From positions 186,001-250,000 of the forward strand of contig NZ_WODA01000025.1 of the NCBI RefSeq assembly GCF_009729855.1: DNA of 64,000 bases, given 5' to 3'. Below are positions 1-62,050 of this stretch, one piece after another. The position numbers and the translations under genes were made by a program. This stretch comes from Agromyces luteolus. GTDB lineage: Bacteria; Actinomycetota; Actinomycetes; Actinomycetales; Microbacteriaceae. Each line of letters opens with the position of its first letter. The first letter of the stretch is position 1. The notes below the pieces were generated by a model, which searched no databases, had not been told where the DNA came from, and saw only the letters and a program-made list of their open reading frames with translations.

Positions 1-1208
1 AGCTGCGGCTTGGCGTCGGTCATGACCTTCGGCGCGTCGCCGGCGAGCCACGCCTCGAAGGGGGCGAGCTCGGCGTCGCCCGCGGCCCAGTCGAGCCGGA
101 CGCTCTCGGTCGTGCTCGCGATGCCCGCGCCGATCACGCGCCCGTCGAGGACCTCGAGGCTGAGTCCGAGGCCCGCGGGCTCGGCGGCGGTCGAGCGCGC
201 GAGCCAGTCGGCGAGGTCGTCGCCGCGGAGCGACTGCGGAACGGGGGTCACCGCCGCGGGTTCCGCCTCGGCGGACAGGGCCGCGGTGCCGTCGGCGGTC
301 AGCCCGTTCGACTCGGCCGCCATCTTCGTGACGCGCTCGAGCAGGGTCTTGAACTCGAGCCGGTCGAACAGCTCCCGCACGGCCGCCTCGTCCATGGGCT
401 GCGCGGCGAGGTCGCGGATCGCGACGTCGAGCTCGAGGTCGCGGACCAGGCGGTTGAGGCGACGGTTGCGGATCGCGTTCTCACGCTCTCGACGCAGGTT
501 GTCGCCGACCACGCCCTTGATCTCGTCGATGTGCTCGAGGATGCCGTCGAGGCTGCCGTACAGGCCCAGCCACTTGACCGCGGTCTTCTCGCCGACCTTC
601 GTGATGCCGGGCAGGTTGTCGCTCGTCTCGCCGACGAGCGCGGCGACCTCGGGGTACTGCTCGGGTCGCACGCCGTAGCGCTCGAGCACCGCATCGGCGT
701 CGTAGCGCTTCAGCTGCGACACGCCCTGCACGTTCGGATAGAGGAGCGTCACGTCGTCGTCGACGAGCTGGATGGTGTCGCGGTCGCCCGAGACGACGAG
801 CACCTCGTAGCCCTCGGCCGCGCCGCGCGTTGCGAGCGTGGCGAGGATGTCGTCGGCCTCGTAGTCCTCCTTCTCGAGCACCGTGATCCGCATGGCGCGG
901 AGCGCGTCCTTCAGGAGGCCGATCTGGCCCTTGAACTCCGACGGCGTCTCGCTCCGGTTCGCCTTGTACTCGGTGTACTCGCGCGTGCGGAACGACTGCC
1001 GCGACGTGTCGAACGCGACGGCCAGGTGCGTCGGACGCTCGTGCCGCAGCAGCATGAGGAGCATCGACAGGAAGCCGTGGATGGCGTTCGTGTGCTGGCC
1101 GTCTCGGGTGCTGAAGCTGTCGACCGGCAGTGCGTAGAACGCGCGGTAGGCCAACGAGTGGCCGTCGACGACGAGCAGGGTGGGCTTCACGGGGGTGGGG
1201 TCCGGCAC
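1..1208 (-). CDS. polA: DNA polymerase I, N-terminal part (gene runs off the window)
   Basis: Repair polymerase; the visible 402 codons carry the 5'-3' exonuclease (flap nuclease) domain and the start of the central domain. The polymerase domain lies beyond the window edge. Residues 11-16 read LLVVDG, the first metal-binding Asp of the FEN family, followed by SLAYRAFYAL. Further conserved blocks are AFDTSRQSFR, DDILATLA, VSGDRDTIQLV and the helix-hairpin-helix region around GETSDNLPGI. The GTG at 1208 is chosen because a TAGTCT -10 box ends six bases before it, which suggests a leaderless mRNA; an in-frame GTG at 1190 is the alternative. No Shine-Dalgarno is visible before either start. The upstream region matches a DNA-damage promoter motif (see findings). 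Confidence 0.95.
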   Translation of the reverse strand, partial: MPDPTPVKPTLLVVDGHSLAYRAFYALPVDSFSTRDGQHTNAIHGFLSMLLMLLRHERPTHLAVAFDTSRQSFRTREYTEYKANRSETPSEFKGQIGLLKDALRAMRITVLEKEDYEADDILATLATRGAAEGYEVLVVSGDRDTIQLVDDDVTLLYPNVQGVSQLKRYDADAVLERYGVRPEQYPEVAALVGETSDNLPGITKVGEKTAVKWLGLYGSLDGILEHIDEIKGVVGDNLRRERENAIRNRRLNRLVRDLELDVAIRDLAAQPMDEAAVRELFDRLEFKTLLERVTKMAAESNGLTADGTAALSAEAEPAAVTPVPQSLRGDDLADWLARSTAAEPAGLGLSLEVLDGRVIGAGIASTTESVRLDWAAGDAELAPFEAWLAGDAPKVMTDAKPQ

Positions 1209-1214
1209 CCGACA

Positions 1215-1236
1215 AGACTACAAGCGGGCACCGACA
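1215..1236 (-). promoter_or_regulatory. polA promoter with RecA-NDp/PafBC-like motif
   Basis: Reading on the minus strand, TGTCGGTG (1236-1229), eight bases, then TAGTCT (1220-1215), then six bases to the GTG start. This fits the mycobacterial RecA-NDp consensus tTGTCRGTG-N8-TAnnnT at every position except the first t. That motif is known as the target of the PafBC activator. The same architecture occurs before rarA. Regulation of polA by DNA damage is inferred, not shown. Confidence 0.6.
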
Positions 1237-1276
1237 CCGCCGGACGCCCCGGACCGGTCGCGGAGCGCCCGCAGAC

Positions 1277-49754: not shown

Positions 49755-51224
49755 TCAGCGCTGACCGCGCACGATCCGGCGCAGTTTCGCGAGCCGGGCC
49801 GACACCTCGCGCTCGTTGCCGTGCTCGGTCGGCGTGTAGTACACGGCGCCGCGGAGCGGATCGGGCAGGTACTCCTGCGGCACCACGCCGATCGGGTCGT
49901 CGTGCGGGTACGCGTAGCCCGTGCCGTGCCCGAGCCGCTTCGCGCCGGGGTAGTGCGCGTCGCGGAGGTGCTTCGGGACGCGCCCGGCACGGCCCGCCCG
50001 GACGTCGGCCAGCGCGGCGTCGATCCCGAGGTACGCCGCATTGGACTTCGGCGCGGTCGCGAGGTGCACGACCGCCTGGGCGAGCGGGATCCGCCCCTCG
50101 GGCATGCCGATGTACTGCACGGCGTCGGCGGCGGCGACCGCGACGCCGAGTGCCGTCGGGTCGGCCATGCCGATGTCCTCCGACGCCAGCACGATGATCC
50201 GACGGGCGATGAAGCGCGGGTCCTCCCCGGCCTCGATCATGCGAGCGAGGTAGTGCAGCGCGGCATCGACGTCGCTGCCGCGCACGGACTTGATGAACGC
50301 GCTGATCACGTCGTAGTGCTCGTCGCCGTCGCGGTCGTAGCGGAGGAGGGCGCGGTCCACGGCCCGCGCGACCACCTCAGGCGTGATCAGCGGGAGCGGC
50401 TGGCCGCCGGCCTCGACTCCGTCTCCCCCGGCGCCGTCGCTGTCGTCGTCATCGGCCGATCCGCCATCGGCCGATTCGCCTTCGGCATCGTCGTCGAGGC
50501 CATCGGCATCGCCCGAGGCATCCGCCGACGTCGCGTGCGCGGCCGCGCTGATGGCCGAGGTCGATGCCGCCTCGAGGGCGGTCAGCGCGCGTCGCGCGTC
50601 GCCCGAGGCGAGGCGCACGATGGCCGCACGCGCCTCCGACGCGAGCTCGACGCGGCCGCCGAGGCCGCGCGGGTCGGCGACGGCCCGATCGACGAGCATC
50701 CCGAGGTCGTCGTCGTCGAGCGTCTCGAGGGTGAGCAGCAGCGAGCGCGAGAGCAGCGGCGAGATCACGGAGAAGGACGGGTTCTCAGTGGTCGCCGCCA
50801 CGAGGATCACCCAGCCGTTCTCCACGCCGGGCAGGAGCGCGTCCTGCTGGGCCTTGGTGAACCGGTGGATCTCGTCGAGGAAGAGCACCGTGGAGACGCC
50901 GTACAGGTCGCGATCGGCGCGCGCGGCCTCCATCACCTGCCGGACGTCGCGGACGCCGGCCGTCACGGCCGAGAGCTCGACGAACTTGCGCCCCGACGAC
51001 CGCGCGATCGCCTGGGCGAGCGTGGTCTTGCCGGTGCCCGGCGGCCCCCACAGGATCACCGAGACCGCGCCGGACTCCCCGGTACGGTCGGCCGCGAGCG
51101 CCACGAGCGGTGACCCCGGCGTCAGGAGGTGCCGCTGGCCGGCCACCTCATCGAGGCTCCGCGGTCGCATGCGCACCGCGAGCGGGGTCGCGCCCGCACG
51201 CAACCCCTGGGCCGAATCCACCAT
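49755..51224 (-). CDS. rarA: Replication-associated recombination protein A (MgsA/WRNIP1 family AAA+ ATPase)
   Basis: AAA+ ATPase that acts at stalled replication forks. It has 489 residues. Walker A GPPGTGKT at 60-67, Walker B LFLDEIH at 114-120, sensor 1 in AATTENPSF, and the C-terminal MgsA domain with [23 protein letters not shown]. Residues about 225-275 are an inserted low-complexity segment rich in Asp, Gly, Ser and Ala between the lid and C-terminal domains. The ATG has no Shine-Dalgarno; TACGCT ends six bases upstream, so the mRNA is probably leaderless. The upstream motif resembles the RecA-NDp box. Confidence 0.93.
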
Positions 51225-51230
51225 GCGGAC

Positions 51231-51252
51231 AGCGTAATCGCGGCGACCGACA
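51231..51252 (-). promoter_or_regulatory. rarA promoter with RecA-NDp/PafBC-like motif
   Basis: TGTCGGTC (51252-51245), eight bases, TACGCT (51236-51231), six bases, ATG. It fits tTGTCRGTG-N8-TAnnnT except at the first and last positions of the first half. With polA it shares the 12-mer GGCGGTGTCGGT at the same distance from the -10. Confidence 0.55.
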
Positions 51253-59762: not shown

Positions 59763-60801
59763 GGTCATCGATGGGCAGCGCCACCCCGGTGCCCTCGGCC
59801 TCGCGGACGAGTCCGAAGTGGCGCCAGGCGGCGGGCGTCGCCATCCGACCGCGCGGGGTCCGGGTGACGAGGCCGATGCGCACGAGGAACGGTTCGACGA
59901 CCGCCTCGATGGTCTCGGCCTCCTCTCCCACGGACACGGCGAGCGTGTTGAGGCCGACGGGACCGCCGCCGAACCTCGTGAGGATCGTCATCATCACGGC
60001 GCGATCGAGGCGGTCGAGCCCGACCGGGTCGACGTCGTAGAGCTCGAGCGCGGCGCGCACGGCGTCGATGTCGGCCCGCCCGCCGTGCACGAGCGCGTAG
60101 TCGCGCACTCGGCGCAGCAGGCGGTTCGCGATGCGCGGCGTTCCTCGGCACCGTCCGGCGATCTCGGCGATCGCCGCCCGGTCGATGTCGAGCCCGAGCA
60201 TGACGGCGGCTCGCCCGAGGACCTGCTCGAGCTCGGCCTCGTCGTAGAACTCCAGGTGGGCGGTGAAGCCGAAGCGATCGCGCAGCGGGTTCGGCAGCAG
60301 GCCCGCGCGCGTGGTCGCCCCGACGAGCGTGAACGGCGCGAGGTCGAGGGGCACGGATGTCGCCCCAGCGCCCTTGCCGACCATGATGTCGATGCGGAAG
60401 TCCTCCATCGCGAGGTACAGCATCTCCTCCGCGGAGCGAGCCATGCGGTGGATCTCGTCGATGAACAGCACCTCGCCGGGGACGAGTGAGGACAGGATCG
60501 CCGCGAGGTCGCCGGCGTGCTGGATCGCGGGGCCGCTCGACATGCGGAGCGGCCGGCCGCCCTCGTGCGCGACGATCATGGCGAGCGTCGTCTTGCCGAG
60601 CCCGGGCGGGCCGGCCAGCAGGATGTGATCGGGGGTCCGCTGCTGCATCGCGGCGGCCGACAGGAGCAGCTGCAGCTGCCCTCGAACGCGGGTCTGCCCC
60701 ACGAACTCCTCGAGGCTCCTCGGCCGCAGCGCGCCTTCGAACGCGAGCTCTGCCTCGGAGGCGAGTTCGGGATCGGTCAGGTCGAGGTCGTCATCGGTCA
60801 T
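59758..60801 (-). CDS. ruvB: Holliday junction DNA helicase RuvB
   Basis: AAA+ motor of branch migration. It has 347 residues. Walker A GPPGLGKT at 64-71, Walker B FIDEIHRM, sensor in [18 protein letters not shown], and the C-terminal winged helix ([23 protein letters not shown]). It overlaps ruvA by four bases. It acts with RuvA and RuvC, encoded just upstream. Confidence 0.97.
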
Positions 60802-61418
60802 CGCGCCCGCGCCCCCTGCTGCGCCGGGCCGAGCCGGGCGAGCGTGAGCCGCAGCAGGACGGGCACCGAGGTCGCGGCCGAGTCATCCGCCGTCTCGAGC
60901 GTCTCGGCGAGCGCCTCGCCCGCGAGCTTCTCGGACCAGCCCAGGCCGGTCAGCGCGGCGAGCACGTCGTCGGCCACGCCGCCCGTCGCGACGGGCGCGC
61001 CACTCGCGGCGACGGCCGGCGCGACGAGCTTGCCCGACAACGAGACGGTGATGAGCTTCGCGGTCTTCGGCCCGATGCCGCTGACGCGTCGGAACGCGGC
61101 GTCGTCGTCGGCCTGCACCGCGCGGGCGACGTCGGTGGGCGACATCGCCGAGAGCACTCCGAGGCCGGACTTGGGCCCGACGCCCGTGACGCCGATGAGC
61201 AGCTCGAAGACCTCGAGTTCGTCTCGCGAGGCGAAGCCGAAGAGGGTGAGCGAGTCCTCGCGGACGACGAGCGACGTGTGCACGATGACCTCGTCGCCGA
61301 CCCGGCTCGCGAGCACGAAGGCCGGCGTCGCGTTGACGAGGTAGCCCACCCCGGAGACCTCGACGACGAGCGAGCTGCCGGAGGCATGCAGCACGCGGCC
61401 GCGGAGTGAGGAGATCAC
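60798..61418 (-). CDS. ruvA: Holliday junction DNA helicase RuvA
   Basis: Tetrameric DNA-binding partner of RuvB. It has 206 residues. [27 protein letters not shown] is the OB domain; the two helix-hairpin-helix motifs are in [14 protein letters not shown] and [13 protein letters not shown]. The C-terminal RuvB-binding domain has [13 protein letters not shown]. It overlaps ruvC and ruvB by four bases each. Confidence 0.97.
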
Positions 61419-62050
61419 TCCTTCACCCTACGGGCTGCCCCCGACACGGCCGCGGCGCGCTCCGCGGCGAGCCACGCCTGCTGGGCGGGCGTCAACGCGC
61501 CGCCGGATGCCTCGCCCCCGGCCCGCGCCGCCGCGCCGGCGCCGCCCCGGGCATCGGCGATCGCGGCGCCCGCGGCTCCCCCGGTGCGCCAGGCGTGGCA
61601 GATCGCGAGGGCGAGGGCGTCCGCGGCATCCGCCGGCTTCGGCACCGCCTCGAGCCCCAGGATGCGCGCGACCATCGCGCCGACCTGCGCCTTGTCGGCT
61701 CGGCCGTAGCCGGTGATCGCCGCCTTCACCTCGCTCGGCGTGTGCAGCGCCACCGGCAGCGCGCGACGAGCGGCGATGAGCATCGCGACGCCCGAGATCT
61801 GCGCGGTACCCATGATCGTCGACACGTCCGATCGCGCGAAGACTCGCTCCAGTGCGACGGCCTGCGGCCGATGCTCCTCGAGGATCGCCTCCAGCCCGTC
61901 GGCGATGCGCGCCAGGCGCCTCGGCGTGTCGAGGTCGGCCGGCGATCGCAGGACCACCACGTCGACGAGCGTCGCCGTGCGGTTCGGCTCGACGTCGACC
62001 ACGCCCACGCCGCAGCGCGTGAGTCCCGGGTCGATGCCGAGCACGCGCAC
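61415..62050 (-). CDS. ruvC: Holliday junction resolvase RuvC
   Basis: Cuts Holliday junctions. It has 211 residues. Asp7 in [14 protein letters not shown], the Glu in ALERVFA, and the C-terminal acidic residues in [17 protein letters not shown] are the active site. An Ala/Gly-rich tail of about 45 residues is longer than in E. coli. The GTG start is 10 bases after yebC. Confidence 0.97.

Follow-up and report, generated by a model that had tools for sequence, protein, structure and literature searches.

A putative leaderless promoter of the PafBC/RecA-NDp type at polA of Agromyces luteolus

For mycobacterial promoters of the RecA-NDp type, the consensus is quoted in PMC5656591 as tTGTCRgtg - 8 nt - TannnT. 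In M. smegmatis, single-stranded DNA activates PafBC, which is described in PMC11804915 as placed between the promoter and domain 4 of sigma-A, with PafB on the -26 element. The PafBC regulon of this organism includes UvrABC, RecA and RuvA, as presented in PMC8223512. The promoter type is already known beyond mycobacteria (PMC8223512, PMC5087735), and SCO6735 of Streptomyces is described as UV-induced (PMC5087735). As for S. venezuelae, the M. smegmatis motif was not conserved there according to the initial search mentioned in PMC9380542.

We analysed a stretch of 64,000 nucleotides, referred to as the window, which corresponds to positions 186001-250000 of contig C18 of a 3.9-Mb genome. The minus strand from 1236 to 1206 reads TGTCGGTG-CCCGCTTG-TAGTCT-TGTCGG-GTG, and this GTG starts polA, whose identity is given by Pfam 5_3_exonuc_N (E=7.3e-59). 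Motif and gene are thus on the same strand, and the elements are the following.

1229..1236, minus strand: candidate -26 element TGTCGGTG (PafBC/RecA-NDp octamer) of the polA promoter; exact motif, with a conserved TGTCGG core
1221..1228, minus strand: spacer CCCGCTTG, 8 nt, from the sequence and the spacer scan
1215..1220, minus strand: -10 element TAGTCT; in 72 of 80 polA loci, TAGnnT is followed by an in-frame start after 6-7 nt
1209..1214, minus strand: TGTCGG, the 6 nt read between the -10 and the start codon
1206..1208, minus strand: GTG start codon of polA, 6 nt past the -10, and probable transcription start (sequence and gap scan)
1..1208, minus strand: polA (DNA polymerase I), 5' part; the remainder lies outside the window (full gene 895 aa)

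The site matches TGTCRGTG-N8-TAnnnT exactly, in the octamer and its TGTCRG core, in the 8-nt spacer and in the TAnnnT -10. Against the longer form tTGTCRGTG-N8-TAnnnT, the preliminary description had counted a single miss, and we could confirm it, the leading lower-case t being a G here; the range it had given, 1208-1241, covers the site and, of the GTG, includes the G only. By eye, no TTGACA-like hexamer was seen 16-18 nt before the -10 and no stretch resembling a ribosome-binding site between the -10 and the GTG. From its sequence, and notably the 6-nt gap between -10 and GTG, the polA mRNA would be leaderless. The LexA box has the pattern GAAC-N4-GTTC, and a scan of positions 901-1500 of the window with four variants of it, allowing no further mismatches, found none near polA. 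The TGTCGG(TG) element, the fixed spacing, the -10 and the start 6 nt further on point to a leaderless PafBC promoter at polA. As described below, the genome encodes PafB and PafC, a set of repair genes is preceded by the same element, and the polA site is conserved across much of the class, all of which argues for a reading by PafBC. Altogether, we consider it very probable that a leaderless RecA-NDp-type promoter, read by sigma-A and activated by PafBC, drives polA.

The frequency of the motif was compared with that of chance controls. The polA site was the only exact match of the window, in which five matches with at most one mismatch were detected for 0.28 expected; none of 100 shuffles reached five. 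The genome scan proposed in the preliminary description returned four exact matches, those of polA, uvrB and recA among them, and none for the reversed pattern; with up to one mismatch, the figures were 59 and 9. When the spacer was left free from 2 to 16 nt, five matches were obtained, four with N8 and one with N9 (C21:86995), and two for the control. Once N6-RTG was added to the motif, the polA site became the sole match without mismatch in the genome. This leaderless pattern gave 68 matches against 5 reversed at up to two mismatches, and 19 against 0 at up to one. Reversing the octamer alone, with the -10 and the start kept, left 8 matches; the intact octamer with a reversed -10 and start gave 38 at up to two mismatches. 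The octamer alone is therefore common in the genome, and the list of 68 includes chance sites. Finally, 30 sites were sought regardless of the start codon (octamer with at most one mismatch, -10 intact), and RTG was found at gap 6 in 11 of them and at gap 7 in seven; an RTG frequency of 0.025 predicts about 0.8 at each gap.

We then looked at polA loci of other genomes, scoring TGTCRG exactly 10 nt before a [TC]AnnnT that is followed by an in-frame start after 6-7 nt. A named set was made of the best 80 of more than 581 loci, whose names we take to belong to Microbacteriaceae, except three named above family level only. In these best 80 loci, the site was present with at most one mismatch in 63 and exact in 32, and no other distance gave more than 4. 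Over the 72 loci with TAGnnT, the core columns were conserved as T 73, G 93, T 94, C 88, G 69 and G 80 percent, and the next two bases were not conserved. At the scale of the class, 196 evenly drawn genomes all contained polA, and 89 of them were examined at this gene: the 30 best-scoring loci, our genome included, and 59 chosen for family spread. Of these 89 genomes, 63, which represent 21 of 28 families, had the site at distance 10 with at most one mismatch, and in 37 it was exact. The gap to the start was 6 nt in 34 genomes and 7 nt in 29. Other distances gave at most 6 genomes with the site. As controls, 180 letter orders of TGTCRG gave means of 2.2 for the 80 loci and 1.7 for the 89 genomes, including the near-identical orders TGTCGR and TRTCGG, which reached 60-61 and 55-56, respectively; the best unrelated order reached 11 and 8. 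A chance motif at polA was rejected on the basis of the spacer scan, the letter orders and the other distances.

The site was not found at this threshold in 26 of the 89 genomes, including all five examined of family f25, which has PafC matches. In family f20, with genomes of 6-11 Mb and presumably Streptomyces, the polA site keeps TGTC and the -10 reads CAGGAT in seven of eight genomes and GAGGAT in the eighth; among the seven CAGGAT sites, the octamer is TGTCAGTG in five, TGTCGGTG in one and TGTCATTG in one. A search restricted to TAnnnT would overlook a polA site with such a -10. This may bear on whether Streptomyces has a damage response of this kind, a question left open in PMC9380542 on the ground that the mycobacterial motif was not found conserved in an initial search.

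PolA is also required in normal growth. This fits a promoter that is mainly constitutive and read by sigma-A, with PafBC raising its activity modestly upon damage and polA being a weak responder. The element is moreover degenerate at polA in parts of Microbacterium (TGTCCG, TGTCTG, TGTCCC), and the TG end of the octamer, as mentioned above, drifts at this gene. However, the sequence at the -35 position does not resemble TTGACA by eye, and the TGTC core is strongly conserved while the flanking columns drift, so that we regard a mainly constitutive promoter as rather unlikely.

The leaderless PafBC promoter was also considered in the light of the other genes preceded by the motif. The exact sites are located before polA (gap 6), uvrB (gap 7), recA (111 nt) and an ORF of 135 aa (42 nt). 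The copy before this ORF lies at L004:2001-2022 (C17:3179-3200), with starts possible 42 or 72 nt downstream, and the 135-aa product matched no Pfam family at E 1e-5. With one or two mismatches and a start 6 nt on, the motif precedes uvrA, ruvA, rarA, dinB, ligA, recQ, an mfd-like gene, ligase genes and five DUF222 genes, as well as non-repair genes. Two of these genes are in the window.

51231..51252, minus strand: putative rarA promoter, one mismatch, TGTCGGTC-N8-TACGCT, 6 nt before rarA
49758..51224, minus strand: rarA/mgsA-like gene for an AAA+ recombination factor (Pfam MgsA_C, E=9.2e-72)
61425..61446, minus strand: putative ruvA promoter, one mismatch, TGTCGGGG-N8-TAGGGT, 6 nt before ruvA
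60801..61418, minus strand: ruvA, Holliday junction helicase subunit (Pfam RuvA_N, E=7.1e-19)

Among the 68 matches of the leaderless pattern, 53 start an ORF that passes the length and codon score (one of these starts being CTG, not RTG) and 15 do not; one of the latter is a real methylase gene and was scanned as a 54th protein. The Pfam scan of the 54 proteins assigned 18 to repair, recombination or replication, a number that becomes 16 without two generic DEAD helicases and 23 with the DUF222 proteins. These 18 are PolA, UvrA, LigA, an Mfd-like protein (UvrB_inter only), the two generic DEAD helicases, RecQ, RarA, DinB, RuvA, an alkylation-repair enzyme, two ATP-dependent ligases, a RadA-like protein, a DNA polymerase III delta'-like protein, DnaX, a LigD polymerase and an AlkZ-like protein. 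The remaining 31 comprise transporters, acetyltransferases, metabolic enzymes, proteases, nine proteins without a family and others. At gaps other than 6 and with at most one mismatch, the motif was also found before genes for a UvrD-like helicase (gap 7), a second AlkZ-like protein (gap 9) and a RecF-like protein (about 27).

The preliminary description had set its reading against an equal motif frequency before unrelated genes. Repair-type proteins represent 10 of the 18 closest sites, at zero or one mismatch (9 without a generic DEAD helicase, 12 with two DUF222 proteins), and 8 of 36 at two mismatches (11 with DUF222), the comparison being one between mismatch classes. Seven coding ORFs of the window start 6 or 7 nt after a TAnnnT. 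The motif is present at three, those of polA, rarA and ruvA, and the other four belong to genes for a dehydroquinase, a PRA-PH protein, a ribulose-phosphate epimerase and an ANTAR response regulator. The repair type thus accounts for 3/3 starts with the motif versus 0/4 without it, and these counts do not support an equal motif frequency before unrelated genes.

Several motif copies had features of their own. The five DUF222 genes start 6 nt past the motif (L025:1559, L043:1501, L168:229, L153:1473 and L174:1473), three of them with an HNH domain match, and the -10 of these copies reads CAGGAT, CAGAAT, CAGGAT, TTGACT or TTGGAT. A gene with an Arr-ms (rifampin ADP-ribosyltransferase) domain (L163:1066-1473, C20) starts 6 nt past a two-mismatch copy; a damage-responsive Arr of M. 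smegmatis is mentioned in PMC5087735. The longer string TGTCGGTGGCATCCGC is common to four copies that differ in their -10 (L008:1487, L010:5522, L015:1533 and L024:1493), and may mark a family of repeats or a longer form of the element. On C19, two copies are located back to back on opposite strands, L045:1456 (minus) and L045:1489 (plus), and precede genes for an EamA transporter and for DNA-alkylation repair. Contig C1 of genome G070 carries identical or near-identical 31-nt motif copies several times, as if on a multiplied gene family.

PafBC was said in the preliminary description to be missing from the window, with a search for pafB and pafC as a check. Both genes were indeed found outside it, as two overlapping genes at about C18:18.9-20.9 kb, and were recognised by their domains, their solved relatives and the arginines of the recognition helix. 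Pfam detects WYL and WCX domains in both proteins and an HTH_PafC domain in PafC. The N-terminal HTH of PafB gave no Pfam match at E 1e-5, and it aligns with the PafB HTH of 6sj9. The best solved relatives of the two proteins are PafBC 6sj9 from Arthrobacter aurescens (4.1e-37 for PafB and 1.7e-42 for PafC) and 7p5x and 9fnd from M. smegmatis. The recognition helix LERQFER of PafB aligns with FGRMFER (residues 42-48) of 6sj9, with both arginines kept and the first F replaced by L; these arginines, R44 and R48 in the A. aurescens protein, are described as strictly conserved in PMC6789036. The family profile search gave no Pup ligase match in this genome.

A different protein could read the motif, such as the ClgR-like XRE regulator earlier reported to recognise it in mycobacteria (PMC5656591), and a gene for a small HTH_3 protein is located upstream of recA (L007:1238-1549). 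We find this very unlikely, since the published PafBC work assigns the -26 element to PafB, and the two PafB arginines are kept. That the promoter is a plain leaderless one with a chance TGTCGGTG, PafBC being uninvolved at polA, is hardly credible. Leaderless-type starts free of the motif do occur in the window, two at gap 6 and two at gap 7, and many copies of the octamer by itself exist in the genome, but the site recurs at one and the same position in 63/89 class genomes against at most 8 for unrelated letter orders. LexA (SOS) control of polA, which might be imagined because some mycobacterial repair genes bear both kinds of sites (PMC8223512), was set aside as the least probable of all since the four-variant scan of 901-1500 found no SOS-like box near the gene.

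With a leaderless PafBC promoter at polA, the sequence of events would be as follows. By analogy with the M. smegmatis work, single-stranded DNA resulting from damage would activate PafBC, the HTH of PafB would read the -26 element, and that of PafC would contact domain 4 of sigma-A and so replace a -35. RNA polymerase would start at the G of the GTG, giving a polA mRNA that begins with its start codon. The expected outcome is more DNA polymerase I upon DNA damage, without LexA cleavage, and in this genome the PafBC system would run without a detectable Pup ligase.

Next, motif, PafC and Pup ligase were compared across the class. PafC-domain matches were detected in 193 of the 196 genomes and Pup ligase matches in 167. 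The PafC profile also matches five of 14 control genomes, including E. coli, and three of the five are over the cut-off, so that a match is not a proof of PafC. The co-occurrence tally covers 79 of the 196 genomes (families f1, f2, f3, f4, f5, f7, f20, f25, f29 and f31, and one f17 genome without a PafC match). In f1, our own family, which should be Microbacteriaceae, all 11 genomes have a PafC match and none a Pup ligase match, and the leaderless motif was counted 218 times versus 5 for the control. Two f29 genomes present the reverse situation, with a Pup ligase, no PafC match and a motif count of 5 versus 4. Genome G060 (91% complete) has a Pup ligase and no PafC match, with 4 versus 0. Family f31 has PafC matches and a motif count of only 15 versus 9, and f25 gave 96 versus 19. 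The f29 genome G068 keeps the polA motif without a PafC match. In a scan of 14 genomes with a relaxed -10 (NAnnnT), the PafC-negative G025 and G068 gave 3 versus 0 and 3 versus 2. Motif abundance thus seems to follow PafC better than the Pup ligase, but the negative side is thin and mixed, with three PafC-negative genomes, one of which does not fit.

We tentatively propose, as a possibility that we hold about evenly balanced, that the PafBC response goes back to the ancestor of the class Actinomycetes and included polA, as a leaderless gene, from its beginning, and that it is separable from pupylation. On the same reading, Microbacteriaceae would have kept the regulator and the promoters without a Pup ligase, and the response would be ended there otherwise than in mycobacteria. 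With Pup ligase matches in 0/11 of its sampled genomes, this family lends itself to asking whether the response needs pupylation in order to end. Outside mycobacteria, the genes listed here would make up a concrete and testable regulon of the second damage response, the one independent of LexA, and polA would be a conserved target of it. The gene name polA was not found in the main text of the PafBC-related articles examined for it, PMC11804915, PMC9380542, PMC5656591 and PMC8223512 among them, and we do not claim that polA is unreported as a PafBC target.

Compared with the systems described so far, the polA promoter has the octamer, the 8-nt spacer and the -10 of the mycobacterial RecA-NDp (P1) promoter of recA. 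Its core and spacing are those of the M. tuberculosis PafBC motif TGTCGG-10N-TA-3N-T (PMC8151990), an organism in which induction was measured. As in the M. smegmatis regulon, genes for UvrA, UvrB, RecA and RuvA are among those that bear the motif, and the Streptomyces RecA-NDp promoters presented in PMC5087735 (recA, SCO6735) are of the same type at other genes. Unlike mycobacteria, Agromyces presumably belongs to Microbacteriaceae, has no Pup ligase match in its genome, and has 18 of its 30 close sites 6-7 nt before a start codon. PafBC of A. aurescens is described as a fused protein (PMC6789036), whereas two overlapping genes are present here. To a promoter type already familiar from these organisms, our analysis adds its class-wide conservation at polA and its persistence without pupylation.
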